In this document: in pieces, positions 7,563 to 48,600 of the stretch
How positions within the stretch are numbered: the first letter of the stretch is position 1
How the letters are laid out: each line of letters opens with the position of its first letter
From: Paracyclopina nana
Taxonomy: Eukaryota; Arthropoda; Copepoda; Cyclopoida; Cyclopettidae
Reading direction: 5' to 3'
Length of the DNA: 64,000 nt
Assembly (NCBI GenBank): GCA_019096065.1
Contig: JAGUCH010000005.1
Coordinates: 5,642,001-5,706,000, forward strand
Program-made: the position numbers and the translations under genes
Notes under the pieces: generated by a model
What the model saw: only the letters and a program-made list of their open reading frames with translations
What the model was told of the DNA's origin: nothing
Databases searched by the model: none

Positions 7563-7832
7563 CTAAATAAGTAACCTGACTCACCCTTACTTGAATATTT
7601 TAACACAATAGAAGGATTTCAATGCAGCAGTGAATATAATATTTTCTGTACTACACACATTTTCGAGTGCAGTCACATTAATGATATCTTATATTAATAA
7701 CCATAGACTGACAAATACAGCTTATTATAGTACATATAGTACCAAATGGGTGGTATATATACTGAGAGTAACTGTTTCAAATGCATTGGTATATAGTTCT
7801 TGTCATGGCCATCACATGCAGAAGCTGTTTTT

Positions 7833-14140: not shown

Positions 14141-17100
14141 TCAGTGTCTTTCTGCACAAACAAACTCATTGGCCCAATTGCATCGGCCTCCCACGGGATC
14201 AAAGGCCAAATACGAGGGGCATTCATATACCCATCCCACAACTCCGCTGCCTATTGCTCGCATTGAGCATGTGATGAATTTACGACACGATCCTGGATGA
14301 GGAAAGACGCCAACATCATGACACACTGGCTTGCCATTATCAAGAATCTCCACCTAAAAAAAGGCAAACATTTTGACTGTATTCAAATCAACTTTTTTGA
14401 CCAAATGTTACATAAAGCTTTCGAGTTTCTAGCTTCCGTCTATTAATTTGAGTGCCTGGGTACTTTCACAAATTAAATCAATTACTTAGTAATGGTATTT
14501 ACCTTGCTAGTTAGGGGATTGAGATCATAGTCTCCAATGGCAGAGACCAATGCAGGAGAGGAGTCGTAATCGTCGTACTTGTCGTAGTCATAATTAGCAT
14601 ACTCAATATCAGACGTTGGAGTGGTTGAAGAAATGACTGGCCTTCTTACAGGGGCTCTTGGTCGGGCTACTGGTTGCACTGGGGCAGCTACTGCTGTAAA
14701 TTGAGGGAGTGTCACTATTGGGAAAGGAGTGGAAGAAGAAGGATCAGTTGTGGTGGAGAATGGATGAACCCTTTGGGTGACAGCTTGGAGTAAAGGCTGA
14801 CGTTGCCTTGACCTCAAAGCAGGATCCCTATTAGGCAAATTAGGCCTTGGTGGGAGTTCACGTACAGGCGCAGGTTGCTCCAGTCTCCTGGGAGTCTCTG
14901 GCAACCTTCTCCTGGGCGACTGGGGCCTTTCCAATAAGGGATCAGTTCTAGGCCTTGTGATGGTATCAAACTGAGTTTGGAAAACGCTGTTGAACAACTC
15001 CTCTTCTGGACGCAACCTTTCAGTCACTGGATCCAGGCTGTTGAAAGCATCCAGGCCAGTGACAACTGAATCCTGGGGCTGAACCACTGGCTCCTCATCA
15101 AAAATGTCCGCTACAGCTGGAACAGGCCTGAATGTGCTGGTGAAAGTAGGCCTAGATAAGCGAGTGGCAGATAAAACAGGCCTATTGGGAGTGGCTTGAC
15201 TGTCCTCAAAAGTAGGCCTGAAAGTTGATGATGCAGGTTCAATGTTGGAAATGGTGGTGTCCACAGTATCTTCAAACACATCCTCATCTTCAATAAGGTT
15301 TGGATTGGTCAGGAACAACAGTGATGCCCTCAAGTTGGGTGGGGGTGTAGTGGTCTCTTGTGGAACAGCTGGACTGGCTCTAAATGTAGTAGTGAGCAGG
15401 AATCGGTCTCCTAATTCTAACTCGGCTGGTTCTTCTTTGATTTGTAGCTGAAAAGAGTCAAAAAATATATTTTAGTTTATCTTTTGGGTGAATTGTGAAA
15501 TTGCCAACACAATGAGCAGCACTGTTCAACTCCTCAATAAAGCAATGAGATTAACTTTTGTAATAACTTTAATGAAAAGTGGCTCACAGTGATGGCAATT
15601 TTTTCAAAAAGTTATTTTGGTGTTAGTTTTTTACACTGAAGTCTTCTGATTGGAGTAGCAGCAGCTTCTGTTTTTTACCTGTATTTTAAGTGAGAAATAT
15701 GGTAGAGGTTTATAAAAGAATTATGAGCTTTGACTCTAAGACCTAATTATCTAGAAAGGAATATTGGTTTAAAAGGTTTAGGATTCAGTTTTTAGGTGAC
15801 TGTGGGTGGCAAATCTACCTGGTCAGCATCTTGTGGCTCAGAGAGGTCATCAGGATCAGGAGAAGTTCCAGGTTCAGGAGTGGAGGAAGACACCTTAGAC
15901 TTGAGAATGCTGCCAAATACCTTCCTACCAAATTTAAGCTTTTCTTTAAGAGCCAATTTTTTGGCTTTATCAGCTGAAAAACTAGTACTACTCTTCAACA
16001 ATAATGGGTTTGTGGTTGTTGGAGCAGCATCTTCAGTGGAGGATGATTCTGTGGTTGATTGAGAGCTGAGTGGTGGTGTAGCAGAAGACACATCCTGAAG
16101 AGCTTCAGTGGGATTGCTTTTTATCACTTTGAATGACAAAAGTTTGGGCTGAAGAGACCCAAATCTTGAAGTGTCAAAAGATAGCTTGAATTTCCTAGAT
16201 AAAAGAGGATTGACCCCATTGCTACTTTTAGTAGTAGTTGGTGTCTCAGTGGTGAGTGGCTCAGTTGAAGGCTCGATTTCAGCTGTTGTAGGAGCCAAAG
16301 TGGTTAGGTCGTTCTCATTAGGTTTTCCATCAACCTCAATTTTGTCCTCAAGCTCATTTTCAGCAGTGCCATTGGCAGATTTTGTGTTGAACCTTCTCCT
16401 AGGCCTATTCAATGCATTGATATCATCCTTGTTGAGCTTATTGCCAAAAAAGGACTTTCTTCTGTCAACCTTATTTCCAATGCCACCAAAACTCTCCAAG
16501 AGTGCTCTTTCTTGCTTTTGAACAGCAGCCACTTTTTTTTCTAGCTGCTTGAGAAAATCTAACTTAGGCCTAGCAAAAGGGCCTTTCTTAGGCCTAGCTT
16601 CCACTAAATCATCTGAAACACCAGGCGTAGTGGTTGGAGTGAGCTCTTCAAGGGCTTGATCTGAAATAGTAGTTGGCTCTCTAGTTGTTGAAATTCCAAG
16701 GGTTGTTTCCTCATCATATTCAACTTCTAATGAGCCAGCTGTGGTCCTAAGCTTTTCTCTAAAATTGGAGTCTCGTCTCAATGTATTAGGCCTAGTTGTT
16801 GGATGATCAGGATAGCCAATGGTGCTCCTGCCTATTCTCTGCAAGGGACTCAGAGTTGGCAGGAAAATATTATCAGCTTCTTCTTCTTCCTCTTTGGCTA
16901 GGGCCTCTAATGGAGACTCAGTAGATGGCAAAAATGTGGGAAGAAATCTTGGGGTTGTGGTGAAAAAGCTGGCAGGAACAAAATTGATTCCATCGCTGGG
17001 AGAAACAGTTCTAAAAGCCTCAGTTGTTGTTGTCTCACTAGTCTCAGGTTCAGAAGTACTGCTATCCTCATCACTAGCTTGCACCTCAGTTTCAAACAAT

Positions 17101-20100
17101 TTAGCTTTCAGCCTATTTCTCACAGCATTCCTTTGCCTAGCTCCAAATTTGGGTTTGAAAACCCCTAGACTCACTTTCAACTCATTTGATGATTCTTCTT
17201 CTTCATTCTCAGCATTTTCTTCTTGTCCACTGGGAGTTTCCTCAGTTGCCTCTTCTTCTTGAGTGACAGTGTTATTAAGCAAACCTTGAGTCTGTTCAGA
17301 CTTACCTAAAGATGACTCTTCTTCTGCAGTTGGTGCATCATTGGCACTTTCTTGAATTGGCACTCTTGACCTTGCTCTTGACCTTACTATAACCCTATCA
17401 TTGACTCTGGATGAGGTCCTAAGATTGCCTTCTCGGTCTCCAAAAGCTGCATTTGTTACAGGTCTCTCATCACTAGAAGATGGCACCTCAGTTGTTCTAG
17501 CAAGGGCAGGTCTTCTTCTCCTTCCCTCAAACCTTGATGAAGATCTTGAGCTTGAAATCACAGCCTCAGTAGTAGAAGAAGGAAGCTCAGTACTTTCAGA
17601 GTTTTCATCTGGGGCTATGCTACTAAGACTGACTCTTCCTCTCTGTCGAATCTTCAGTTGCCTGTTATTGATCACATTTTTGCTGCTGCTATCTTCTTCT
17701 TCAGTAGATTGAACTGGAGAAAATCTGTGCTGAGTAGGAGGAGCACGAGCACGAGATCGACTTCTAGTTGGAACTCTATTAGCGAGAGGCTCAGCCTTTT
17801 CTTCAGGCTGAGGCTCAGGAACTGATGTAGTAGTGGATGCTGAAACAACAACTACTGAGTTGAGGATCTCAGCAACTGATGGAGGTTCCTGCTCGATGGG
17901 TGAATCACTTGGCTCATCTTTGCTTTCAAACAAGCTTTCTAAAATGCTGGAGGAGTCAGAGCTCTCCACTGGTTTGCTCTCAGCCTCTTTCTCATCACTC
18001 ATGACACCACTGAGTCCCAGACTGCTCAGCAAATCATCACTAGTCAAAATTCTTTCTCCTGTTGGAATGTTCTCATCCTCTTTGACTTCTGTTTGAGGTT
18101 TTTGAGGGGGCTCTCTTGCAACTAAGGGTTGCTGTTGTGAAATGGGCCTTCTAGGCCTAATGGGCCTACTTACAGGAGATGATGCTCTGAGTGGAGAAGC
18201 ACTTCCAACAATAGGCCGAGTAGGCCTGGATGGAATCACTTTACGTCTGGGGCCTCCTGAAGTAGGCCTTGCATTAGTAACGAGCTCTTTTTCTTCTGCT
18301 TTGCTATCTTCCTCTGCATCTTCTTCTAATGGAGCTTCTTCTATTTTCTCGACAGTTTCATCGTCCAAATCCCCATCACTTGTCTGATCCTCCAATTGCA
18401 ATCTAAGCCTTTCTCTGAGCTTATTTGTGTCGGATTTGGGCCTGAAGGAATGTGGCCTCAAAGTTGTGGTTTTGGGCTCTTGATCGACTTCTCCATGAAG
18501 GCCAGCAAGAATGTCACCCACAGTTAATTTGTCCGTAGTTTGAGCTCTTTCTGTGGCAGCCGTGGAAGCATCCTCGTCATGGCTTTCAGGCCTCTGAAAA
18601 CTAGGCCTGGCCCTACTTATTGTCTTACTCGGGGAAACATCCAAATCTAGAGGCTTGTTAGGCCTGACGAGGCCATTCCTTGACTTGGGCAACTCAATGG
18701 GTCTTGAAGTGATTGAGCTTGGAGGCCTAGTAGGCCTAGACTTGAGTGAAGGTCTCAAGGGAGAACTTGGTTTTTTGAGTAGGCCAGAAATGGGAGATTT
18801 GGTCGAGCTAGATTCATCCGTCTGAGGTGTGTCAGACTCTACCACAGCTTGCTCCAAAAGCCTCGAGTGAAGGCTTTTGGGCACTTGAAACTTGGGCCTT
18901 TCATTTCGATTTGACAGCAAAACATCCAACTTTTCAGTGGTGGTGTTATCAATTATTTCGTTGTTATCCTCAGACTGGTCTTCATCATCAGTTGAAAGTT
19001 GGTCTTCCTCTTCTTCTATCATTTCCTTGGCATCTCTATTGTTGAGAATATTCATCATTCCCATGAGTTTCAGGCTGTCCAAATCTTCTGATTTTTCCTC
19101 ATTTTCAGCGTCATTTGCTTTCTCCTGCGAAATTGGATTATTCTTGGGAGAAGAGGCTAAAGAAGGCAAAGTCTTCTTAAGTGCAAAGCTTCTTTTTGTT
19201 GTAGTTGTTGTTGTGGGAGGCTCAGTGCTTGTAGATTTGCTATTAGCCAAAAAGGGATGAGTTCTCGTGTTGGGCTTGAACAAATTCAGCAATTTGTTTT
19301 GGCTGGCTTTGGCCTTTTCAGTAGTAGTAGAAGAAGACAAGATTGCCTGCTCAGTTGTAGAAGAAGTAATTAAAGTGGGATCTGTTTGCTGATGGGTTGT
19401 CTCAACATTTGTGGCAGAAGTTGAGCTTTCTTCAGTCTCGTCAGATGAGCTTGGTGCCAAAGTTGAGGTGACAAACTCGACCAAGTCGTTGATGACCTTG
19501 GCCACAGAAAAAGACTCTGAAACACTCTGGCTCACAGACACGTTGATGATTTCATAGTCATCAAAGTCATCATTTGCTGTTTTTTCTTCTTCAGATTGTT
19601 TATCATTGACGATGTCTGCAGCTGCCACCTCTTCATCATTCTTTATTGGCAACAATTCAGTAGGAATGTCTGCAGAGTGAATCTGCTTTTTGGCCCTCGT
19701 CAAAGGAGCACTGCTTTCAGGGAAAACATAGGCAACTCCATCATTTTCTGGCAGCACTGGAAGAATCTCAATGTGGTGATCTTCTCCAAGTGCCATCCCG
19801 TTGAGATGACGAGTTGGAAATACCAAGGAAATGGACTCTGGTGATCTACGAGTTCTGAAACCTTCAGCAGCTTCTCTTCCAGGTGTTTTTAAAGGATTTT
19901 GGTCATTGGGGGATCTACGTTTTCTCACTTCAGATTCATAATTGATGGCAGCTACACCAGCACGTGGCTGCCTCAATCTCGATCTCAAAGCATTCTGGGC
20001 AGTTCCAAAGCGAGAAATGATATTGCTACTACCAACCTTATTATTATCCTCGTCTCCGCCAAATTGATTGATATCCGGCCTCTCTATTGGTGCCTCAGCC

Positions 20101-23100
20101 TCATCTGAGGCACTACCGCGACCACGCTGAATGGTGACGTACCTACAAAAAGAAAATAACATATAAACTGGATTTCATCATGTCTTTTCTTGCGGTGTTC
20201 ATCTACAAAACCTTTAAAAATCTTGACGCAAAGGAACTTTTTGTCTTTGCAGTCAATTTCAGTTTTGGGAACTGAAAATAAAATTGGAAGATCACAATTG
20301 AGACTCACACTACAGTTGGTTGATTTGAAAGCAACATTTTGCCAAAAAAAAATTGCTTTACGTGAGACAGTATGTGCAGATGAACACAGCATTTTTACAT
20401 TATATAGCTGATTTGTTGTTGTTTAGGATATTTTCTGTCAGGTCAGGGGCATTATTTTTAGGAAGAAAGGAGCGTGATGGAGGATTATGTTAGTATTAAG
20501 GTACGACATATGGTAAAAAAGTGCATCAGGTGATTTTGGTGGCATGTGTGTAAGTGATATAGGAGGACTTTGCTGATTCTGGAGACGATGGATGATGGTG
20601 TGCAGTGATGGCAGTTTTTTTAAGTATAAACTTACTCCAAATTCCTGACACCTCCTTGCAAGCCAGACTTGGGGATTTCTTCTTGGTCCTCTTTTTCCTC
20701 AGATTCCTCAACTATTTGGAAGCTACCTACTCCTGGCAAGGGAGTGACAAATTGGTTGCCCTCTTCAGCTCCACCACGTGAGGCACTTCCACGGTCAATC
20801 GTGACGTACTCCAAAGGTTTAAGAGTGCTAAAGGATTAAATTTGTACCAGCTTTGTTTTACGAAAGTCATGCTTTCTTAAATATAGTAGCGCGCTGTCCA
20901 AAATGCCAGCTGTATATAAAGTACCTTGAGTCTTCATCGTCCTCCTCAATGGCAGAAGGAGGTGGACCTCTATTGGAAATGGAAGCTACATTCTTCCTGA
21001 GGCTGGAAGGCCTAGATTTAGCAACAACAACAAGTTGATGATAACAAAAAGAGAGTCGAGGAGGAGGAAGAGAGAAAGAGGGAAAGTTGGTTAATATCAC
21101 AATAAATAGAACACTACTCATTACTGTTAAGATAATAATTAAGCTACTTTACTTTGGAGGATAAAAAGCAGCAACTTCTACAGTTTATAGTACTATAAAT
21201 ACGTAGCAAGCAAGAATAACAATGTCTGGTCTGGGATTTAAACTAACAGCCTGCAACGCAAGGTTTACCTTTCAGTGGCTGCAGCAGCTTCAGAGTTACT
21301 TAAGGCCGGATTTCTTTGGCGGATCGAGGCAATATTGGGGCTATTGTTGCTGTTGGTTCTGCAAGGAAAAAGGAGGGTTTAAAAGGAGCAAATACGAAAA
21401 AGCAGGATACATTATGCCTAGTGCATTCCTAGCTGGTGAAAGCAGGCATTTTTACTCCAGAAGCACTTCTTGATGAGAGACAAAGTGCAAAAGAAGTGCA
21501 AAAGTGAGTGTGTACCTTGTGCTAGCAGTGCTATCGTTAGTGCTGCCATCTTCTGACAAAGTTTCATCCTCGAGAACTTCATGAAGACGGCTACGCAAAC
21601 GGTTTCTAATGCCAGCCTCAGGCCTGAACCGATTGAGCCTCAAAGGGGCGGGTTCACCTGACTCGTCTTCAGAGGCAAATCCCAGTAATTCCACTTTGGG
21701 CGGCTCGGTCTCGGCATTGAGCCTGAAAAAGTGCAACAGTCCAAATGACAGAAGTGCAAAAATGCAGGTGCACACAGGAATGCATTAAAATTATTATTGC
21801 TCAGAATACATGCCTTACAGTTGTGTATTTTACAGTATTTATGGGGTGTGAGTGTGTGTTGTTGTAATATGTATGCCTTACTGTTCAAATTGTGTGTTTT
21901 CAAGGGATGAAGGAGGAGTTGTGGTTCTCGTCAAGAGATTTCTGAAGCGTTCACGACCTCGGAGGATGTTTTGCGTGGCTGAGGGTCTGGGGGAAGTGGC
22001 TTCAGGGGCTGCAGTGGACTCGTCCACAGATCCACGGTTCAGGTTGAACCGTGATCGGTTTCTAAAGAGGTTGGAGCGGACTGTGGTGGCAAGGGAGGAA
22101 GAAGTGGAGGATTCCGAGGATTCAGGGGACTCAGTCGACCTGAACATAACATTTAGAGGTCATCAATTTGATTTTACTCATTTGACATTGCGGCGTTCAT
22201 CTCTTACAATTGTCTGCAATGTCGCATTACGATACTTAAATTTTTGTCTAAAAATGAATTTTTATGACTGAATGTTGAAAGCAAATCAATCAAATTTCCA
22301 GTGAGATTCAATTGAAATATTTTGAGCTAACTTTCAGTTTCCAAAACTGAGCAAAATTCCATAGGAAAAAAATCCTAATATGGACTTTTTTTTAGAGATA
22401 AATGCCATGAATTAAATTATGCGACAATTGTGAGTGCAAAATGATCATGGTGCAACTCAATACGTGATTTTTTACGTACTCCTCATCAACATCATTGTCA
22501 TCACTAGTCCTGGTGACAGGCTTGTCAATCCTGGTGGCCTTCCTTTTCTCGGCCAGTCTGGCCAAAAGATCACGCCGAGAGCTCTCAGTTGGGGGAGGAA
22601 TTCGGGAAGGGATGGTAGAAGCTGATGTGGTAGGAGGGGCAGTGGGTAGGGTGATTGGAGGCCGAGAAAAGGCCGAGGACGAGCTCGACTTGGTGGCCTT
22701 CTGGTCATCACTGCTGATTGATCATGCATCAGTAAAATCAAGCTACAATTCATGCTCGAACAAAAAATCTCGAAAGATATACCAAGTACACAGTGGAATT
22801 TTGAGCAAAATGTAAATATGGCTTTTCGATATGCCCAAGAAAGAATAGCAGTTTTTACCTTTCTAATTCCTGCATAACTTCGGCTCTTTTTCGATCTAGC
22901 AGTTCGGAAAGTCTGCTCCTGGTTTTCTTGGAAATCTCAGCTCGTCTCTCTTCCTCACGGCGTTTGGCAGCCTCACGTTCCTCTTCCTCCAAACGGAGCT
23001 TCTCCTCAAAGGCATCGAGACCACCTGAAAAAAAACCCGATAAAAATGAGCCAATATTGGAGCTTGACCAAACAACATCGTACCAGCTTCCTTTATGGCT

Positions 23101-26100
23101 TCCAATACTTCTTCCAGAGTCTCTGGCTCTCCTCCATTGGATTTGGTCGAGGCTGAGCCAGCCTCGGTGGTTTTCTGGGTGGTTGCACTGGTGGTTTGAG
23201 GCTCATCTTCTTCCTTCTCATCTTTGCCATCGCAGTCGACGTTTCTTCTGAAATCGCAGCCATCAGTCAACGAGTTGAAATAGAGGCCTTGAGGACAAGT
23301 GAAGGTATGGGCCACCATTCCACTTCCAGGCACGTCCAAACACCAGAAATACTTCTTGCAGCTGCTCGTGTGAGGGAAAAATCCCTCGTCCTTGCATTCA
23401 TAGGCTAATAATCAAGAAATTGTTAAATACCTAATTCATTATGCAAGTAATTATGATAATTACCTGGAGCACTGCTCGGAGTGGTTGGAGGTTCAGGGGT
23501 GCTGAAAGGGTCAAAGGGGAGTGGGTCAAATTCGAGGGATGTTGTTCCAGAGGATGGCCTCGAGGTCACTGAGGTCGTTTTGGAAGGACGGCTAGAATAG
23601 TACACAACATAGCTGATTAAAAATGTAAGCAATTAAGGTACTACATCTAGGTACTAAGCTGTAATTTGGTAAATGCTTTACAAACCTTGGGCCATAGTAC
23701 ACACATTTATAATTTTTAAGGGTAGAAAGCTGGAAAGGTTATGAAGTGAATTATAAAGGGAAGAATTGCGCAATAGGGATAAATGTGTAAAAAAAGAAGG
23801 GGGAAAAGACCGAGTCATCAATCTCGTTTTGTACAAGAGGATTACCATGCAAAGGAACAAAAAAAGCTTTCTTGGAATTGAATGAGTCTGGTTGCAAGTT
23901 GAAGAAAATAAAATGTCATGATGCACTTCAAGAAAATTGATGGCTCAGTTAATCAGGTGAGAGAAGACAAACTCTACTTTTAAGTGGTGTTCATCAACCA
24001 AATTAAATAGGCAATATTCGTCCTTTGTAGTTTAATTTCAGTTTTGAAAACTGAAACTGATATTGGAAGATGACAATTGAGGGTCATCTGCAAGAGCATT
24101 GATTTGAAAACAACATTTTGCCAAAAAAATAAATCTTTTAAAATGACGATCAATGGGAAATATGAAGAAGATGAACACCACCATTTAAAAGTAAGGAAGG
24201 AAATCAAGGAGAAATCGAGGTTGTGTGTTTTATGTGCGAATACCTAGCGAGTTCAGCTAACTGCTCTCTTGACAGCTTGAGCATCTCAATGCGAGTTTGT
24301 TCAGATGTGGAGATGGATACCGAGGTTGCACTGAAACGAAATTATGGTGCAATATCGTGAGGTGATTTTTGCTTCAATCATAGAGGTGCAAAAAGGCTTC
24401 AGAAGGAAATAGGAGAAAATAAAAAAAGGCTTACGTTCTGATGGCTGCATCCTTGCCATACAAGGCCTCTTTGGCAGCCTCAATCAAGGGGAAAGGCCGA
24501 GCTCCACAAGCTCCTCTGAAGTCATCATTGTCAATGGTCCAAAACATGATTCCACCCAAGGACTCCTCGTTCACAAAATGGGCCTTTTCCCTCACGATGT
24601 ACTCGTCGTCGAAGCCAACCCAAAATTTGCCTTTGTGAGCATATGGGCCCATGACTCCAGGATATGGAGTCTCCACTTCCCAGCCATCCTCATCTTGGAC
24701 TGATTGGCATACTTCATAGTAGGCCAAGTATCCATCCTCTTTGGTACCTTTGCCAGCCTCACCAGGACCATCAGTGGGGCTGCCAATCTCATGAGCATCC
24801 GGATTGACGAGAGTGTAAGATCTTCCATATGTTGGAATGCCCAAGACAAGTTTGTCCCTGGAGGCTCCAGATTTGATGTAAAATTGAATGGTAGCATCCT
24901 TAAAAGCATAATTAATTAGTTGAAATGAAATTAATTTGGCTTGATAATTACAATATTCAAATCGACTCTGAAGTCGAATTCAGACCAATCTCGTGGCTTG
25001 TACAATGGGGAGTGGTGATTGGTGGCTGGCTCATACGCTGAATGGTAGTCATAGGTGAGCAGGTTGAAAAAGTCCAAATGCTTGTCCAGGGTGGCGATAT
25101 CGAAGCCTTTGCCAGCATACTCCAAGGAAGCAGGGACAGCCATAGTGATGAGCAGTCGAGGCTTTCCAGTCTGCTTGGCCTCAGACTCGAAAGCTTGACG
25201 CATCTCCACGACAAATTTGGCATAATTGTGCCTGTCCTCCGGTTTGCCTCCATCCCTGAATGAGGGATACTCCCAATCCAAGTCGAGTCCATCAAAGTTG
25301 TATTGCCTCAGAAATTTGAGTGCGCTCCGGATGAACGTTTTTCTGCGCTCCGGATCGGCCACCAAAGGGCTGAATCGTCTGGAGCCTTCATTCCAGCCTC
25401 CAATGGCGATCAAGGTCTTCAAATCTCGATTGTAAGTTTTCAGAGCTGCAAATTGGCCGTACCCACCTACGTGAAAAAAAGCAAAATTGAGAACTCGTGC
25501 CCGCATATTTCTTCATAGCATATGGGAAATTGGGCCCAAAATTACCTTTCTCAAGATCTTGGTACTTGTCAAAAGTCTGGATGGTGTCGTCTTTTCCCAA
25601 GCCGGCAAATGCATAGATGAGATGGGTGCAGAGGTAGGGGTTGATGTTTTGCGGCGTGAATTTCGCAGTGCCTTGTCGGTAAACTGCCCAATTAGCATAA
25701 TAACAGACCACTCGTCGGTTCTCGATTTGTCTTTTCGCCAAAGAATGCGAGTCTGACAAATCTTGGGTAGTAACTGCAAAAATCAAGAAAAATGCATTCA
25801 ATACCAAGTTCTCCAACTTTTTTCACATGAACTGATAATTCACATATTAATAAAATTTTCTGATTAAAAATTAATTTTCTTGATAAACTGCCAATTTAAT
25901 TGCCAAAAAAATAAATGAGGTTACAATCCGCAAGATGGAGCTGCTATTTGTTTTTTCTTAATATTTTGGCCACATAACCACCAAAAATGCAAAAAAACAA
26001 AAATTCGCAAGATGGAGCTGCGATTCGTTTTTGCAGAAAAACATTTCCATACTATTTTGGCCACTTAGCCTCCAAAAATGCCAAAAAACAAAAATAGAGA

Positions 26101-37537: not shown

Positions 37538-37699
37538 AAAAATTTGCACACTGGATATAAGGTCAGCAGAATGTGTTTTTATATATTTGCTGTATATGAG
37601 CAAGGTCATGTAGCCAAGTTTTGAGATAGAAACTCTGATCGGGAAACGTTGGAAGCGAGGAGATGGAAGAATGCTCAAAATATTGCATGGTGGCTGCTG

Positions 37700-37716
37700 C
37701 CCAGCGAACCCTTTTT
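37700..37716 (+). repeat. Left terminal inverted repeat of the transposon
   Basis: CCCAGCGAACCCTTTTT, an exact inverted copy of 45622-45638, directly preceded by the target duplication TGCTG. Confidence 0.9.
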
Positions 37717-38124
37717 TGGAAAAGTTCATATTATCAGTTTTCCAGTCTATCGTGTTTGAAAACGTTTTTATCAGTTTTTATCAATTTTCTTATCAAAACA
37801 AGTTTCTGAACGCATTTGAAATGTGTTTTTGTTTGTTTTCGCCGAAATCGTTTAAATTCTAGTTGTGGAATTAGAAAATAACAAGTTTTGAAATGCGTTT
37901 CCAAATTCGATAGGAATCTAATGTCTCGGAGATCAATTTTCAATCAATTTTGAAGAAAATTGTTCCTGAAATTTAATGAAATTTGATGAAAATCAATAAT
38001 TTTCCAACTAAATTCCAAAATGTCCGTCTTGCTTTCATAACTCCTGTTAGCGATTTTAAATTGCAAATATGTCGGAAACGTGTTCAAAATAATGGTTGAA
38101 CCAAAATGATTTCTCCTGATAACT

Positions 38125-38130
38125 TTTATT
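38125..38130 (-). terminator. Polyadenylation signal of the transposase gene
   Basis: The minus strand reads AATAAA about 120 nt after the transposase stop, inside the element. Confidence 0.5.
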
Positions 38131-38248
38131 TGGTGCAATTAAGTTATGCAAATGAATTCCAAAGTTACAATTCAGGCTTAATATTGTGACATACGCACAT
38201 AACATACATTTTTTATCGCGATTCGCTTACAAACACATTTCAATACTT

Positions 38249-41122
38249 TCAGGTGTAATATACGTCGTTCGGGACTGACACCAGGACTTTGTCAGCCAAT
38301 ACAACTTTGCACAATACTTTCTTCTTTGGAACGAGAACGTCTTCGTCGTCGACTCTATCCATGACTTTCACAAACACCTCGTCCCAATCCAGGTCAGGAG
38401 CCTCCGGTGTAAAGAATTTCTTTGTGAAAATCTGATTGCATTTGTAATGCGTGTCACCTTCAGTGTCAAAAACGAAATAGAAAAGGCCATCCTTGGTGCA
38501 AATAATGTTGTTGACTGTTCGCTTTCTTCCGCCTGTCTTCACAACGACTTGGTAGCCACAGCAATGGTCGTTCATGTTTGAGATGAACGATTTAATGAGG
38601 CATTGCTTAGCAAAACTCAATGTGTACGGCTTGATGATTTTCTTTAAGTAGGAGAAATAACTTTCGAATGGCATAGCACTTAGGTCAGAGAGTGCTCCAA
38701 TTCTTCTGATTTCGAACAGATGTGAAAACGTGTGTAAATTGAAAGAGCAGCTCTTTGCGCCAAAGTTTCTTTCATACAATCTGTAGAATTCCCTTTGCTT
38801 TCGGAATCCAACACTAACCGGCATAATTTGTTCGAAAATTGGGTCAGGGAGTAATGCAGCATGAACAATGAAGCTGAAGTAAAGCCAAGTCTTGATGATC
38901 GAAGTTGATAGGAATGGCTTCATGGCGGTGTATAAGTGTGTGAAGCCACAACAGATGATTGCCAAGATTTCGCTTGCTTTCAAATGCTTGAAATTTGATA
39001 GAAGTGCCCTTGGAGCCCTTGGAAACTCTTGCGGCAAACTTGTCTGCAGCCACAGCTTGTCGAAGACTTTCACTATTTCTTTGGCAGCAACACAGGTTAT
39101 CTCCTTTGCATTATTGACTTCGAAAATTAATCCGAGTAGAGCTCTTCCGACACCTAATCCAATATTATGCATTGGATCTGGTACAAAATCACGAATAATG
39201 TCAAAGTTTGAGAGCTGCAGCAAAGGTGATGATCCTTTAATGCCGAAGCGGTCCTTCTCCGCAATGCTTTCGGGATTGTTTTCAATTTTGGCAACAATTT
39301 CGATCCATTCTGCATGTGTCCGCCTTCGGTAATTCATGGATGCTGCATCAAAGGACATTTTTTTTTCTGTTTTCAAATACTTTCCTACGCAGTAACACCA
39401 TTCACAGCTGCAGTACCCATTGTGCTGCTTCAAACTCTTCATTTTCGCTCTCATTGGGCTGTCGCCTATAAATTTCCGAACCACAAAGTTGTTATCCAAA
39501 CATTCTTGCAAAGTTCTGCTGCAAAGATCGACAATATCTGTTGTCTGGCCTTTCCGGTAAATGTGTATGGCCAAAGGCCACACCTTTCGGCAAGGTATGA
39601 ACCTTACACACAACACATTCATCAATGCGTCAGAAGATTTTGCCAAGGGAACACCGTCTACAAACAGGTCTATTATCTTCTTGCCTCGAAATTCACTTTT
39701 TATGCCATTTGGGTGGACGCTCAAAAAGAATTTGTAAAGGGCCGTCAACTCAACAGTGGACCATTCGCAAAGTAACAAATATCTCGGTCTCGGGTACTTA
39801 GATCGTGGAAATGATGTTCCGTGATGCTGATGAACAGTCTTTGTGACCGTATCCAGGAATTCGTACGTCATATTCACGGGGGGTATAACCTTTTCGAAAC
39901 GTTTTTTGATCGCTTTAAACGATAGCAAAGTTCGCTCAGTCAAACTTCTTGCAAAGTTCCAAAAAACTTTTGCTGCTCGGTCCGTCACAGCGAGAATGGA
40001 TGCAAGGAAGAAGAATCTAGCGTACAAGGAATGGTTCCTCTCCTTGACTGTGGGCAATTGATTTTCCTTTTCCAAAGCTTCTCTGAAATCACTTAGATTT
40101 GTTCCATGCTGCAGCAAAGCGTTATCTTCTCGCGGATCATCATTGCCATCCTCCTCAAATTCCTCATGTGCGTCATAAAACACATCCTCAGTTTCGACGT
40201 CCGGCATAGCTATCATGTCTCTCAATTGAACCTGTAACGAAAAGAATTTGTAATGCATTTGAATGAAGCATGGGTAATATTAGATTCTCACTGGATCTCC
40301 ATCACAATCTGGATATTGGTCAGATTCTGTGTCTGACCTTCCATTTTCCTTAAAGTCCAGGATTGGCTCGCCTGAATGAATCGGCACAAAGTTGTCATAT
40401 ATCTCGGAATGCGACAAATTTGTGTCATTGTCGGAGCCATCAATGAAAATGATGCTACCGTTGTCAGATTCGCTACTCCTCGTATCATTAGCGACTGGAA
40501 TGCCTTTGGAAGTTGATGGCTGAGGATTGTCCAGACTTTGCGATGCCAGCTTGGCTTTCTTGTTTGACATCTCCTCTAATTCCTCCTGAGTTGGCGCTTC
40601 AAGTGCGTTACCAAAATCTTCGTAGCCAAAAAGATCTGGCGTCTCAGCGTTTGGTGAAATCGGACCAATAGCCTCCAATTTGCGTTTCAGATTCTTCTGG
40701 AGCAATTCTTCGTTCCTACGCATAGCCTCCTCATCTATTGCTTCCGCAACTTCTTCCTTCCCTTCAGAGATCTCATCTTCGGATGAGCCCGACGACGAAC
40801 TTTTTAATTTTCGAATGCATTCCTCAACAATTGCTGGATCCTGGTCGTTGAATGGGCAACAATCATTTAAATGTTCCCCGTACAATGCTTCATCACGGAG
40901 GCTGAAAACACAATTGGAAGTTGTACGTAATTAATAACGAAACGTAATTAAATGAACTTACATTTCCTCATCGACGCCTTGCGCCTTCTGGAGTAGACGA
41001 ACTCGAGCTGCGCAACGATATTGGATTAAGCGTAGCTTCCTTTCCGCCTCTGCTGCTCTAAGCCTGTATCGTGCTTGCTTTGCAGCATTTTCAGCCTTTG
41101 ATCGCTGCTTTCGCTTCTTCAT
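38249..41122 (-). CDS. Transposase, TNP2/Transposase_21-like (CACTA/EnSpm group)
   Basis: Three exons: 41122-40962, 40901-40292, 40231-38249; 917 residues with no internal stop. Exon 1 is a basic helix (KKRKQRSKAENAAKQARYR), exon 2 acidic and disordered. Exon 3 has the transposase core in its usual order: IDLFVDGVPLAKSS (Asp at about 449), IGDSPMRAKMKSLKQHNGY (Asp at about 514), zinc-binding-like CSCEWC, DFVPDPMHNIGLGVGRALL (about 609-612), then the MPFESYFSYLKK block near the end, where the third acidic residue of an RNase-H-type DDE site is expected. These match plant TNP2/TnpD and the animal transposase-domain proteins of the same family. It would cut and rejoin the element's terminal repeats. 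AATAAA (minus) lies at 38130-38125. Its promoter must lie in the 445-bp gap shared with the divergent partner gene. Confidence 0.85.
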
Positions 41123-41567
41123 TCTTCGAATTTACTTTCTTTTTCACTTTGGAATTTCATGCGATGATGAATTTTGGAAATTGTGCTGTCTGCTGACGCC
41201 AGCGGCCGATACGAAAATGGAGAACTTAAAAAATTAAAAAAGTAATAAACACTTTTTTTATTGCATATATAATGATAGCATTATTTGCTATAATTTTTTA
41301 AGTAAATTTTCAAATTGCAAAAAAAAATATTTTTTTCTAGTCGCCCCTGAAATTCGATAAAAATCGACGCCAAAATTGATATCTACTTACAGGCAGCCCA
41401 AGCCGGCCAATTCTGCCTAAACTGCCAGTTTGTGCCGCCAATTGCAACGGCCGCTTTTCCATAATTCAAAAAGTTCGTCAAAGCGAAAGGCGTTAAAAAA
41501 CCGAAGTGGAAAGATTTAGAAAATCTTAAAAAATCGTTTGCATCCGAATTAATTTGGATTTTTTGCG
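41123..41567. promoter_or_regulatory. Shared divergent promoter region inside the transposon
   Basis: The 445 bp between the two divergent start codons must contain both transcription start regions. The transposase side is AT-rich with A/T runs; the partner-gene side has GCCGGCC-like and CCGCC-rich blocks. No canonical TATA element can be assigned with certainty. Confidence 0.5.
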
Positions 41568-44500
41568 ATGGGACCCAAGAAGAAGCCGCAGCAAACTGAC
41601 GATACGCCTCCAGATTCCCCCGGAACGGTTTACGACAGGCTAATCTTCATTTGTCTGAAGCAAGAGGAGCCGGTCCTTTGGATGCCGACGGATCATGTCT
41701 ATGCTGACATGCAAACCGTGACCGAAGTCATTTCGAGCTTCAATCCGTCAAAAAGAATGACTTTGGCTCAAAGGGCGAAAGTTCACAACTTTCTGTTCGA
41801 CGAGACTGAGCCGGCCAAGGCGATGTCTATTTTCTGCCGGGTCGAAAGAGGTTCGTATAAGTTAATTTTTTCCCAAAATCGATTAGAACTCATTTTCAAT
41901 CATTTTTTTTCAGGAACGGACGATGCACGGGTCACGGCGCTCGTTAAAGACCTTAATGCAAGGTTTAAGTCTCTGTCGTACCCTCAAAAATCTGGCGTTA
42001 AGGCGGCGATTCTCAAAAATTTTGGAGAGAAGATGATGAAAAATTGGACGTACACGGAACGTGATTCCATCACCAACAAAATCACGTATCAACGCTGGAA
42101 TGAGGTCTCAACTCGTAGGCGTGGAGGACAAGAAGAGTTGCCTGCAACAACAACCGAGGCCGAAAGCGAGGGAGAATTAACTCCAAAACGCGTTGGGATT
42201 AAAGGAGCGAAGAAAGCCATTTCCAGCTCTTCTGAGAGCACCAGATCACCTGACGGTGCTGTAAGTTGCCTTCTTATTAAGAAAAAGCACTTTGCTTCTT
42301 TCGAAAACGCAATTTTTTGATGCAGGCTGCATCTGGAATCTTTCTTCAGAACCCTTTCTTCACTCCGGGGAGTGCGAGGACAAGTGGCCAGGCGGTCGTT
42401 CGTAAGGTTTTGGATCCAAAGGAGGGAACTTCCAAAACGAATGTGGAAAGTCTTGCGTCAAAGGCGGTTGACACTCCTGGACGAAAACGGATCAAACATG
42501 TTTCCGAATCCGATAGCGACACGATCACGCCATCGCCAAGCAAGAAGATGGCTACGGAGGCGTCCTCGGCAAACTTGCCACCAATGGTGAACTTGTCTCC
42601 AAGCGCTGAGGAAGTTGCAAATGCTGCAGCTGCATTCGCATCGGCAAAGGCTATCGTCTACGACTGCGAGTTGCCAAGAATGGTAAGGACTAACTTGTCG
42701 TCACAAACGCATTACGAGTTCAATAACATTTCCCTTTCAAGGATGCTCCGACTTACTCCGAAGCTGTCTTGATAAGTGAGGAGCAGTTAGATGCGAAGCT
42801 GAATGCATTTTTGAATGCATTTTCCAACAAGCAGCAACCGAAAGAGGAGTTGAAGTCCATGATCCGTGAGGTTGTTGGCCAAGTACTGGATGAGAAGTTA
42901 GCCGACTTGCAGGACGCTCTCCATGATGCCATCATCACTCAAATTGCGAAAGTGATTGAAATCCTTGGTAACAAGGCTACGAAGAGCAGCGTTGCAGTAA
43001 GTACTTTTAAATTTTAAAGTAGGAGGTTTCACAGAAACTGTACTAATGCATTTTAATCTTCATTAGAAAATTTTGGAGGCTATCAATTCGACAAAGACCA
43101 CCATTGAGGATTTCTCCATTGAGCAAGTTCGTATTCGCAACGAGATTGGAAACATCAATGAAAACGTGGCGGAAAAAGAATCACGTTCTTGTGGCATTCT
43201 TGCTCGATTCCTGCCTTTCGACCTCATGGGCCAGGGCCTCGATGTATTTTTGGCCTCTCATTACGTCCAATCCAAAGTCGTCTCCCTCATTAAGGACGAA
43301 TTGTTCTCCCAAAAAGGCCATGTCAATGTTAGGATTGCGTTTGCATTCACAAACATTTTCTTGACCAGGATTGCTATGGCCCATCTTGTTTGGCGTCACC
43401 CAAAGAAGTAAGTTTCTTTTCCCTGTGCCAATGCATTGCTAGGCTTATTTGACATTGTTTAAATTGCACTCTTAGCCCTGACAAAGTCTTGTACTACAAG
43501 CGCAAAGTTCCAAGTGCGTTTCAAAAAATTATTCAATCGGACATCATTCCATTTGTCCGCGCACAACTCAAGATGGGGAATGAGACTTTCGTTGGTAGTT
43601 TCGAAGGAGTCAAGAAGGTAATGGCGAGGAGATTTGCCAATGCTCGGACAAAGCAGCTGGAACTAGCCTTTGAGGACAGCTCGACTCCGGATGCGGCACT
43701 GGATGCTCTGCACAACTCAGATAATGAGTACTACATTCAAAACACTGTAAGTGCAATTTATTGTTCTAAATGAATTCGAAACTATTTGTTTCACAATTTC
43801 CATTTCTTGTTTTCTCCTCAGCATGCAATTCCTAGCACTGCCGCAATGGAGGATCGCGCAGAGTACAAGAAGAAGCTCATGGACGCTAGGAGCGAATGCA
43901 AGAAAGCGTTTGCGGACTACCAGGATAAGGTTGCTCTTGGCAAGAGTTTCACCGAGCCGGATGATTTGTTCGATTCCATGCGAGGACCAAAGAAGACTGA
44001 AAAGGTTTTCAGCCCGTACGAGGTGATGCAGGGTATAATCGCGGCTGCACGTGCTGATGGTCTTGACGTGACCAAGTTGACTTTTGATCTACCCAAAACC
44101 GTTCCGGACGTAAGTTTAAATTAATTGTGCATTGCAATCCTTCGCAAACTTTACAATGTCCTTACTTTCAGATCCGGAACATTTACAAACGTGTTTTGGA
44201 TGATCACATCTCCGACCTGGATGCGCTTTTGACAAAGTTCCCCGTGGATACTCAAATTCCAACTCGCCGAACTCGTTCCGATAGCGAGAATGAAGAGCAA
44301 GAGCGACTCAACAAATTGACGGCCATGGACAGCAACTCCGATGAATCCACTGAGGATGTGCCAGACACGCCAGAGGCCCCACAGTATTCCACGGCCACCA
44401 TTGAGAAGCCTGCATCTGAAGAAGACGAAAGTCCTTCGGAATTGGAGAGAAACGTTCCCCTTATCACCCTTTCTGATGAGGAAACCAGCTTTAAGCCTCC

Positions 44501-45045
44501 TGATGCCTACACCCAAAAAATGGAAGGTTATAAGGCCATGGTCGCTGAAACCACTAAGAAGATGTCTGAAAAGTATTCGTGGTTTTCTGGAAAAAAAAGC
44601 GATTCTTCCCAACCTGGGCCTTCCAAAGTCGTTTCAGCCCCAACTGCTTCTGCCTCGTCCCAACCTGGGCCTTCTAAGGCTACCACTACTGCAAGTGGCA
44701 CTGTTCCGCCACCCTTGCCACCAGTGAGTCCAAACTCTTTTTTGAAAATTAATTGCAAAGCAAAAAAATTCTTAAGGGGCGCAATATTGAAACGTCTTAA
44801 AATTTTGCAAATGTAATTGTAACTCATTCTTAAGCATTGGCTGCAACCCTTAAGTGCCTAAAAACCTTCTTACATGAATGCTCCTTTTCCAGCTTCCGGC
44901 CAATCCTTATGCTCGGCCAGATCCATTCGAAGGCATGAGCAATGAAGAAATCGAAAAGCGTTTGCAAGCCTACTATCGCAAACGCATGATGGAGGAGATG
45001 CGATTGGAGCAGGAGGGGAAGCAACGTCGTCCAGAGATGAAGTAG
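41568..45045 (+). CDS. Transposon-encoded partner protein, function unknown
   Basis: Nine exons: 41568-41850, 41914-42260, 42326-42682, 42742-42996, 43067-43407, 43476-43746, 43822-44109, 44172-44723, 44893-45045; 948 residues in one frame. Intron 1 (63 nt, weak GTTCGT donor) could be retained without a stop. I do not recognise a named domain. Seen: a basic N-terminus (GPKKKPQQ), a folded-looking segment (about 10-130, with LWMPTDHVYADMQ), a Ser/Glu-rich linker, a coiled coil in exons 4-5 (EEQLDAKLNAFLNAF to VIEILGNKATK), a conserved-looking globular block (CGILARFLPFDLMGQG to FVRAQLKMG), then an acidic/Ser-Pro tail with two SSQPGPSK repeats and a charged C-terminal helix. By position it corresponds to the second protein (TnpA-like) of two-gene CACTA elements, which binds subterminal repeats. 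That role is an inference. AATAAA at 45224-45229. Confidence 0.8.
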
Positions 45046-45223
45046 ATGGCTTCCAAACAATTTTTGCTTTTCTTTTTTCCTTGCCACTAGGCCTTACTGT
45101 AATTACTTAAGTACTGGGAAGTCATTTAGAACATTTATGCCTATTACTACTGTAAATATGTTTAACAAAAGAAAATTTGACGAGTAGATAGCTTCATTTG
45201 CATCACTCTTATGTAACAATGAT

Positions 45224-45229
45224 AATAAA
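45224..45229 (+). terminator. Polyadenylation signal of the partner gene
   Basis: AATAAA about 180 nt after the stop codon, inside the element. Confidence 0.5.
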
Positions 45230-45621
45230 TATAACATCTTTTCGAACGAATTTGTAATTACTGCCTTAGAAAAGGCCTTCAAAGCCTTTTTGGTCAGCGT
45301 GTAGGCCTTCTTTTCATCAGTTTCCGAACAGTTTCGATATCAAATTCCTTGAGGACTGCTTCAGTTGTTATCAATTTCTGAACGGCTTCCAAATCGGTTT
45401 TCCTAGAAAAAAAACAAATTTCAAACACGTTCCGAAATATGAGACATCACTACAAAAATTAAATTTTTTATCAATTTTTATCAATTTTCAGATCGGTTTC
45501 GGAATCTGATATCTCATCGATTTTAGTTCAACTTTCATGTTACCACTTTAATAATAGCAAATGCGTTCGGAAAAAAACTTTTCATCGATTTCTAATCAAA
45601 TTATTTATGCTTTTCAAAACG

Positions 45622-45638
45622 AAAAAGGGTTCGCTGGG
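45622..45638 (-). repeat. Right terminal inverted repeat of the transposon
   Basis: AAAAAGGGTTCGCTGGG, the inverted copy of the left end, directly followed by the target duplication TGCTG (45639-45643). Confidence 0.9.
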
Positions 45639-48600
45639 TGCTGTGGTAGCCTGCGCTGAACAAATAGATGCTTAAAATGCCAGCAGCCGTGGATATGAAG
45701 GTTCATGCCTAATAAATTTCGTCACACAAAGAGAAAAAAGCTGGGCATTATCTCATATGTAGATTGCAATGCTCAAGGATTTCTGTTCTTATCAATTGAA
45801 AAAATATGGAATATTACTTTCTAATTGATAGAAATTTTTTTTTGGTTTTGGTTTCAGCGAGAGTTCCTGGAAAAAGAAACTATTTAAAAGGTGTGTCAAT
45901 TTTGCAAAATCTTGAGTCCGGATTTCATGCCTTCAATGCGACTTCGGCTAAAAATTAATGGCTCAGTAGTATCATTGTTCTATTCCGGATTGCTTAATTA
46001 CCTATAACTAGCAAATAAATTATATTTTTTGAAAACTCTGCGCAATGGACACTGATCCCAAGATAAAATCCGGAATGGGTGCTTACGCAATTCTAATTTT
46101 ACAACCTTTAACTAATAGCTTAATATCGCTAAATAGCTGAAAACTGAGGCATGTTGCATGTTATTCAAGCCACATTTTTGAAAGAGTGACCAAAATGTGA
46201 ACGCAACCATTTTTCGAAAACCAAAAAAGTTCCATTTTTTTAAAATGTGCGAATTTTGACTGAATTTTGGCTGGAGGATCATTTCCCAACGTCTAGAAAT
46301 TTTCATGTAAAAGCTCTTTTTCCTCCTTATCAAACTTAAAAAACATCTCTAATGCCAGAAAAGCACAAGAAATGCTGCCAAATAACAAAAAACTCGTCGA
46401 CAATTCGTCTAAGATTTAAGAAATTGTGGACAATTTGCCCAATCCGGATTTTCTTCAATTGGAGTTCATTAATTGATTCAGTAACTATTCAAATCCGGAT
46501 GCTTAAAATTCCTTGAAAAAACTAAAGATTTTGTGCATTAATATGGGTTTCATTTTTTTAGAGCTCATTGACAACAGCATATAACTATTACAATGGAATT
46601 TAATTCACCTTTTATAAGGAAATCTCATAAAGTTATATGGAGCAAGAAATAATGGCCGAAGAATTACCATAATCTATGAAGCGGAACAAAGAGGCCACGC
46701 TCGCACTTCACTCTGAGCTTTTATTGGACTGCTTTCAAATACGCAAAAGACAAATAGCCATCGAAGCTCGATATTTCACTTACGCCTAATTACCCATCTT
46801 TTTTTGTTGGAAGCAGATCCGAATTAGATCAATTCTCTCAGAAGATCCCTATGATTATTTTTGGAAGGTATCTTTTTGGTTGGCCTCCCAATATCCACTT
46901 ACTCCAAGTCCAATAAATTCCTTGTGGGGTGGGCTGAATTTTAACTAGACTGCCTCGATATGTGCCCTGCATTCATCCTGGTGCCTTTTAAAGGTAGAAA
47001 AGAAATATGTGCAATAATTCATTTAAGCAGCATACATTGTGGTTTGGTCTTTAAGCGTTCCTTTATTGGGCTGCTTTGGGTGTCTGCAGTAGTTAGAGAA
47101 AGTTTGCCTAGCACCTAGCTTCCTTCTCACCCACAAAGTAGTGCAAAACAAAGTTTTTCCTTCTCAGGTTTCTTCCGCGTCGTGAGAAAACCAGCATCTT
47201 GGTTTCCAAGACAAGTAAACCAATTAGAATGGACACTTTTGGCCTTTTATGCTTGGGCTGAGGAGCCTTCTGTTAGCTATAGTCAAGTGACAGCTATGGG
47301 TTAACTGGGTGTTCTTTCAGGGCATCTCAGAGATCTCAATCGTTGGTGAGGATATTGCAGTAATGGTGGCCCTTTATCTTGGAGACAGGGCTAAATCTCT
47401 GGTTTGTGTGGAGGAGTTGAAAAAAGTCCTCCAATCTACGAGGGGAGAACTATATACTGGGAGCATTTTCCTCCTTGGCTACTCTCGTGGAGGGAAAAAG
47501 TTTCCATCAGCTTTCTTGAGTAATTTTGTAGCTGAAAATAAGTGACATTTTAGCCTAGCTCCTTTGTTCCACATATCAAACTTGATTTCAGAATTTGATC
47601 TTCTACCTATTATCTGCTAGAAGGAAAGTTGATAGCAAATGGAAATGAGTCATACATTTGCTACAGAGTGATAGCTTTCTAAATCATAATGCGATGATCA
47701 TCTATTTTCATTGTCGGATTCTTTTGGATCTAAGGACCAAATATGATGTTGATAATCGACTCTCTTTTTTAGGCAAACTCTCGGTTTTTTTATTGGTATG
47801 ATTTTGCAGTATAGATGATCACCTGATAGTGTATAAGAATTGGAGGGTGTTTTGTACAAGCAGAACAATTATGAGAAGTTTGTCAGAACTGTCAGTGACA
47901 GCATTCATGAGTGGCTGCTATTGCATCCTCTCCATTCAACACCAACTGATTTTTAATTCTGGGAAGGAAAGCACTGCCACAGACATATGGACCGTCCCTC
48001 CACTCCATTCAAAATGGGTCCCTTTGATGTCCAACTTGACTGGGTGCTAACCAAACTTTTGGGGTACAAATCTAGATCAAGCTTTCTAAACCAAATGCAA
48101 GTTTGGACGTTTGCTTCCAAACGCCATTGAAATACTCATTTTGTAGCCAAATCAATTCCTAGATTAAATCTGCAACAGGCTCTGCTATGTGGTAGTTAAA
48201 AGAGCCTTTCTGTGCAATGAGACAATACTGCTAGTATTCAGTAGACGTGGCATATAAAGGGTGAAGTGTGTCCTCCGTGGTCTATTTCGAAAGCTGTTCA
48301 AGTCCTTTGCATCTATCTATATGCAAATCAGTTTACTTCTAGTACTTGCAATAAAAAGCAGCTTGCTAGCTAGCTGGGTGGCTTGCAAGACCTTGGTCTA
48401 TTATCTCAATAAGGTTATCATCCTGGCTGCTATATGCAAAATGACGAGGAACTTTTTTAAGGGCAACCTTTTTGTAGCTGTGGCATCAGTCGTCTGATCT
48501 TGCAGAAGACTGAACTTGTGTCTTCCATCATGCAGAAAACAACTCAATACAAATACTGTCTCGTCAGCGCTAGATACCATATCGAAAATAGGGCGAACCG

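Follow-up and report, generated by a model that had tools for sequence, protein, structure and literature searches.

A probable two-gene DNA transposon with CCC ends, related to CACTA elements, in the copepod Paracyclopina nana

The window analysed here, a 64,000-nucleotide stretch of the Paracyclopina nana genome (C5:5642001-5706000; 92 Mb in 10 contigs, labelled C below), contains at positions 37700-45638 an element of 7,939 bases. Very probably it is a complete DNA transposon that moves by cut and paste and belongs to the CMC(T) clade (CACTA/EnSpm-Mirage-Chapaev-Transib), its closest counterparts being the animal elements named TRC, for Transposon Related to CACTA (PMC1636069; this and the other papers cited are drawn on in part). 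It carries a divergently transcribed partner gene, probably maintained by selection, whose product most likely serves as a co-factor. New here are the conserved, divergent partner and the extent of the intact radiation to which the element belongs; CCC ends are already known in animals.

The element starts CCCAGCG, with the end sequence CCCAGCGAACCC, and is bounded by perfect 17-nt terminal inverted repeats (TIRs), as an earlier reading of the sequence (the original prediction) had proposed: CCCAGCGAACCCTTTTT on the left (37700..37716, plus strand) and a 100% complementary arm on the right (45622..45638, minus strand). The pattern CCCAGCGAACCCNTTT matches 62 times across the genome, against no match for the reversed control, and 58 of these matches combine by position into 29 TIR pairs, with 4 left unpaired. 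Full-length elements of about 7.9-8.8 kb make up 22 of the pairs and short elements of 1.3-1.6 kb the other 7, one size in each class being given after subtraction of a nested copy. The own-genome search proposed with the original prediction returned 46 matches to the whole element as DNA query, itself included (next best 75% identical), and recovered other copies and empty sites. Near-identical pairs (99.9%, 99.5% and 99.2%) lie at different sites, among them 99.9% pairs in two further families with 16-bp ends, CCCCACTAAGTGTTCG and CCCCACCAGAATTTCT; several related lineages have thus moved or been duplicated recently. Another related element has CCC-type ends, CCCCACGAACCC, and one related family begins CCCCACTA, in which bases 4 onward read CACTA; in this single case that may be a link between CCC and CACTA ends or chance. 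Two of the short elements resemble the window element only within its bases 1-28 and 7815-7939; these 1.3-kb non-autonomous elements (L027 2978-4289 and L028 5445-6786) are 96.7% identical to each other and carry internal repeats. A third short element, on C4, resembles other loci mainly at its ends, plus one weak 45-base internal match. At C2:2562768-2587671 (L026, L066-L068), three copies of the CCCCACGAACCC-ended element stand head to tail, with TTAATAT between copies twice; the outer flanks suit a history of two independent insertions a few bases from each other, with duplications TT and AT, after which an unequal exchange gave the middle copy.

Within these ends lie two divergent genes on opposite strands. 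Splice models reproduced their predicted lengths exactly, along with the uninterrupted frames, the GT..AG introns and the nine exons of the partner, and both AATAAA signals are present. The transposase gene, on the minus strand, encodes 917 residues in three exons: a basic N terminus with 34% lysine plus arginine in its first 50 residues (exon 1, 40962..41122), an acidic low-complexity part by composition (exon 2, 40292..40901) and the catalytic part, residues 258-917 plus the stop (exon 3, 38249..40231). Its AATAAA lies beyond the stop, as the complement on the forward strand (38125..38130). The partner gene, on the plus strand, encodes 948 residues in exons 1 (41568..41850), 2 (41914..42260), 3 (42326..42682), 4 (42742..42996), 5 (43067..43407, the part aligned across relatives), 6 (43476..43746), 7 (43822..44109), 8 (44172..44723, mostly low complexity by composition) and 9 (44893..45045, including the stop), followed by AATAAA at 45224..45229. 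The stretch between the two start codons (41123..41567) is, by its position and the gene orientation, a presumed two-way promoter.

The partner is conserved and travels with the transposase. Linkage was scored as a divergent match within 7 kb of a transposase locus, using a subset of the 137 genome matches to partner exons 5 and 6. A divergent partner lies beside all 41 transposase loci of at least 40% identity (11/11 at 70% or more, 14/14 at 50-69% and 16/16 at 40-49%) and beside 10 of the 24 loci at 30-39%, compared with a mean of 0.26 and a maximum of 2 of the 65 under random placement of loci. Nineteen further loci, which came up only when the L064 transposase was the query, add 11 with a partner (20 partner rows used), one of them at just 121 bp, maybe an overlap artefact. 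Because L064, one of 14 loci scored without a partner, holds a weak partner match (E 1.7e-4) and two open reading frames (ORFs; 2320-2733 and 3970-4323) similar by eye, the missing partners at distant loci are due at least in part to the limited reach of the query. Transposase and partner distances are closely correlated (r = 0.949 over 14 elements, one element being represented for the partner by a sister copy 99.9% identical to it; 0.928 over 12, leaving aside two distant families). Partner-like exons of about 114 codons also occur away from any transposase in the scored locus lists (for example, C1:4859925, C2:8446487 and C3:6458861), possibly as further lineages or solo copies.

In the proposed mechanism, the transposase would bind the CCCAGCGAACCC ends, pair them and cut, and the cut ends would be inserted into the target at positions staggered by 2 nt, which would produce the 2-bp duplications. 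The 948-residue partner would be an element-borne second component, kept by selection together with the transposase and most likely a DNA- or end-binding, oligomerising co-factor, with a role analogous, not homologous, to that of maize TNPA. Candidate binding sites for either protein are short motifs of the AAATTGATA and GTTTGAAA types, repeated in excess of shuffles in the AT-rich subterminal regions on the left (37717..38248) and right (45046..45621). When 20 end regions of 14 elements were pooled and compared with dinucleotide shuffles, AAATTGATA was seen 12 times against 0.48 expected, in 8 of the 20 regions; no specific binding motif stood out among the top-listed 8- to 10-mers, none of which is present in all 20.

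The same motifs leave room for an unlikely but serious alternative, in which the partner counters silencing or controls expression by acting on the non-coding ends of its own element. VANC acts in this way for VANDAL elements and TNPA does so in part for En/Spm, TNPA being a protein that binds subterminal repeats. The repeated motifs in AT-rich ends would suit such a protein, as would the low-complexity acidic and basic parts of the partner and its presence beside 41 of 41 related loci of at least 40% identity. Set against this, the partner has no known domain, and the end motifs are AT-rich and were compared with shuffles alone. We favour the co-factor role, to which conservation, linkage and position together point.

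The catalytic part of the transposase was aligned over 16 exon-3 proteins, that of the window and those of 15 loci in the same genome, 88% to 33% identical to it. Left out were loci with a stop or frameshift (L011, L019 and L020), interrupted or cut-off loci (L024 and L025) and the sisters of L062 and L064 (L063 and L065). Seven residues, D192, D257, C276, C279, H500, H504 and E523 in exon-3 numbering (D449, D514, C533, C536, H757, H761 and E780 in the whole protein), show no change in any of the 16, and neither does H355 (H612). The seven form the signature D..D..C(2)C..H(3)H..E, kept in 16/16, which is that of the CACTA/EnSpm-Mirage-Chapaev-Transib clade (PMC12730594) and bears out the predicted DDE-type relative of CACTA/EnSpm. 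Because of these residues the transposase would belong in the CMC(T) clade, and because of its ends and motif A it is probably adjacent to TRC. The motif A core, D-x-[LM]-H-x3-L-G, occurs in 15 of the 16 transposases, compared with 10 of 32,000 shuffled proteins; it is reported for eumetazoan and three of four fungal TRC proteins, and not for plants (PMC1636069). A second motif, motif I, is reported for most TRC elements (PMC1636069), and 12 of the 16 hold a relaxed form of it, DG..WP[ILV] at wider spacing.

Several observations weigh against this reading of the element. Strict motif A, first residue included (L/V/I-D-X-L/M-H-X3-L-G), is present in 1 of the 16 transposases, and strict motif I (I/L/V-X-I/L/V/F-X-I/L/V/F-X2-D-G-X3-F/Y-X7-9-W-P-I/L/V) in none, which is also a difference from TRC. 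Pfam gave no match to the window transposase at E up to 10, Transposase_21 (PF02992) included. Over the 16 exon-3 proteins it gave weak matches to nine unrelated families, none of them in more than 4 members; the best was Tricorn_C1, at E 0.0034. There is no relative in the Protein Data Bank (PDB; one match at E 0.74), and AlphaFold2 run on the single transposase sequence gave a pLDDT (predicted confidence score) of 34, too low to test the fold. The partner had no Pfam match at E up to 10 either, and its relatives had weak matches to unrelated Pfam families and none in the PDB; its role would follow from its linkage to the transposase, its place in the element and its conservation. No near-identical sister of the window copy was found, the relative with the best score being 75% identical DNA, and its own recent movement is suggested by intact ends and frames. 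The predicted recent mobility is supported for the family, whose copies at different sites are 99.2-99.9% identical, more than for the window copy itself, which is probably still mobile.

These negative results also bear on the possibility, in our view quite improbable, that the transposase comes from another superfamily, whose elements arrived at CCC ends and 2-bp duplications by convergence. Transposase_21, Mirage (DUF1258, PF06869) and other transposase models are absent from the Pfam matches of the 16 members at E up to 10, which would fit such an origin, but seven signature residues stand in the right order and are invariant in 16/16, the TRC motif A core is far above chance, and the TIR resembles those of Aedes (CCCAGTCAAC, PMC1636069) and Hydra (CCCAGCCAACATTGAC, PMC4298943). 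The 'TNP2-type' label of the original prediction is supported by the published motifs and not by its proposed profile check, which found no Transposase_21/TNP2 match in the window proteins or the 16 exon-3 proteins at E up to 10. Genome look-ups for Transposase_21 and DUF4806 found no relative, with the controls likewise silent, so that absence genome-wide is not established, and no relative was confirmed in viral and prokaryote contigs.

The published elements most like the CMC(T) transposon described here are the TRC elements of Schistosoma mansoni (SmTRC1), Aedes and Tribolium, which have CCC ends and 2-bp duplications, the latter of 2 bp in 7 of 14 SmTRC1 copies (PMC1636069). Shared features are the CCC ends (in Aedes, CCCAGTCAAC), the 2-bp duplications, the CxxC after the aspartate and the D-x-[LM]-H-x3-L-G core, and the Aedes aegypti element, at 9.2 kb, is similar in size to the window element, that of Tribolium castaneum being about 5.2 kb (PMC1636069). 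In the copies analysed here, CCC stands at the TIR start in CCCAGCGAACCC, CCCCACGAACCC, CCCCACTAAGTGTTCG and CCCCACCAGAATTTCT, with a 2-bp duplication. The ends are thus non-canonical, as had been predicted, relative to plant CACTA elements; as a kind they are already published for animal TRC. Unlike the window transposase, TRC elements are named with a Transposase_21 domain, and the second products of SmTRC1 come from splicing and tandem ORFs of one unit, whereas here there is a separate, divergent nine-exon gene (PMC1636069). Spongebob_HMa/EnSpm-4N1_HM of Hydra, placed by its authors in the TRC of the CACTA superfamily, has a similar TIR, CCCAGCCAACATTGAC, and a 2-bp duplication; its exact transposase could not be read by its authors owing to stops or frameshifts, and the passages seen mention no partner gene (PMC4298943).

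The plant CACTA/EnSpm elements share the CMC clade transposase and, in Spm/En, two functional proteins (TNPD and TNPA) and a similar size of 8.3 kb (PMC1636069). They differ in their CACTA/CACTG ends, compared with CCC..GGG here, in a 3-bp duplication (PMC12730594), which is seen here in 2 of 29 pairs, and in having genes spliced from one unit, whereas those here are divergent and the partner has no Pfam family. Mirage is defined by a DUF1258 (PF06869) transposase (PMC3985635), a model not among the matches of the 16 members at E up to 10. A transposase with a second element-borne protein is also found in Harbinger/Nuwa (PMC12730594) and in RAG-like transposons (PMC7204232); the Nuwa partner carries Myb/SANT, a domain not matched in the partner here, and the genes of RAG-like transposons are convergent, in contrast to the divergent pair here.

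The family is large and mostly intact. At least 84 transposase loci were found in the 92-Mb genome, 65 initially and 19 added with the L064 transposase as query; these counts are lower bounds that give no decay rate, 67 of 237 and 72 of 234 candidates having been scored with a bias to good matches. A hand count gives an uninterrupted match of nearly full length at 57 of the first 65 loci. Five of the other eight have a stop or split frame (C2:4516240, C7:5767477, C1:375234-377208, C1:600923 and C3:9131650) and three are short matches (C9:2350221, C2:2568689 and C2:10574787). Over transposase exon 3, the non-synonymous distance between the window and 12 relatives is 0.09-0.36 by a simple Nei-Gojobori count, and all 15 pairs computed have synonymous differences past saturation, at non-synonymous distances (dN) of 0.06-0.36. 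Partner exon 5 behaves similarly, with a finite synonymous distance in just 2 of 13 pairs. Domestication of these transposons as host genes would account for frames that stay intact despite saturated synonymous change, and the 57 of 65 uninterrupted loci fit this as well; it is nevertheless very improbable given the 22 full-length elements with paired TIRs, the 2-bp repeats at 25 of 29 pairs, the near-identical copies at different sites, the nested insertions and the short non-autonomous copies.

The target duplication is 2 bp, because flanks match at this length in 25 of 29 TIR pairs, where chance would give about 1 in 16, and because a nested pair on C8 supplies an empty site: when the flanks of the outer element are joined over the inner copy (121 bases) and set against the inner element's uninterrupted sequence, the difference is exactly two extra bases, CT. 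The two 16-bp-ended families have 2-bp repeats at all four insertions (TG, TG, AA and TA). For the window element the duplication is TG, at 37698..37699 and 45639..45640 (plus strand). Four pairs are at odds with this length: two match at 3 bp (AAT) and not at 2, and two match at neither, one of these matching at 1 bp. One of the two mismatching pairs, nested on C2 (C2:4510471-4518606 inside C2:4509452-4518918), shows AA duplicated when compared with the intact short C4 element, plus TT beside the left end, perhaps a carried donor flank or a later footprint. The original prediction had read a longer repeat, and its letters, TGCTG, are indeed present at both borders (37695-37699 and 45639-45643); as a target duplication, TGCTG was ruled out by the 29 pairs and two empty sites, under the very refuting condition that came with the prediction. 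That the element genuinely duplicates 5 bp, and is an undescribed lineage by its insertion chemistry, is hardly credible, since the window copy is the sole one of 29 pairs that also matches at 5 bp, the empty site shows 2 bp, and TGCTG starts and ends with TG and is therefore compatible with a TG duplication plus three further bases matching by chance (about 1/64 per copy).

The original prediction also spoke of an unusual or undescribed animal lineage. The divergent partner gene is indeed unusual; the kind of element and its ends resemble published animal TRC elements. In the literature found, mostly titles and the starts of abstracts, no second gene is described in animal CACTA/TRC elements, nor is one in the passages seen of PMC4298943, PMC2884549, PMC12730594, PMC3985635 and PMC12220107 or in the results of PMC1636069; Repbase, where a named family is possible, was not covered. 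A wider reading, which we offer tentatively and would not yet put on an even footing, is that of a distinct, ancient, two-component animal branch of CMC, with a CCC-ended DDE transposase and an obligate second subunit that has no known domain, whose dozens of saturated intact lineages within one compact arthropod genome would persist through ongoing transposition, through horizontal entry or through the two together. Among the little-studied animal relatives of CACTA, the element is a two-gene system that comes with intact copies and short non-autonomous derivatives, with ends that are defined and empty sites that are exact. Should the partner prove necessary, this would be another CMC-type transposase with a needed co-factor, beside TNPA/TNPD and, in the wider clade, RAG1/RAG2. 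So many intact, synonymously saturated lineages together in a 92-Mb genome pose a question for transposon population biology.

The animal origin of the host was correctly predicted, the genome holding 80 Chitin_bind_4 matches, which point to an arthropod. For a nematode host, looked for through SL2 RNA and cuticle collagen, there was no match, with the controls silent as well. Near the element, two host ORFs in the window, both on the minus strand, read by eye like a chitinase (24431-25822) and a long, 1,460-residue low-complexity protein (15792-20174).

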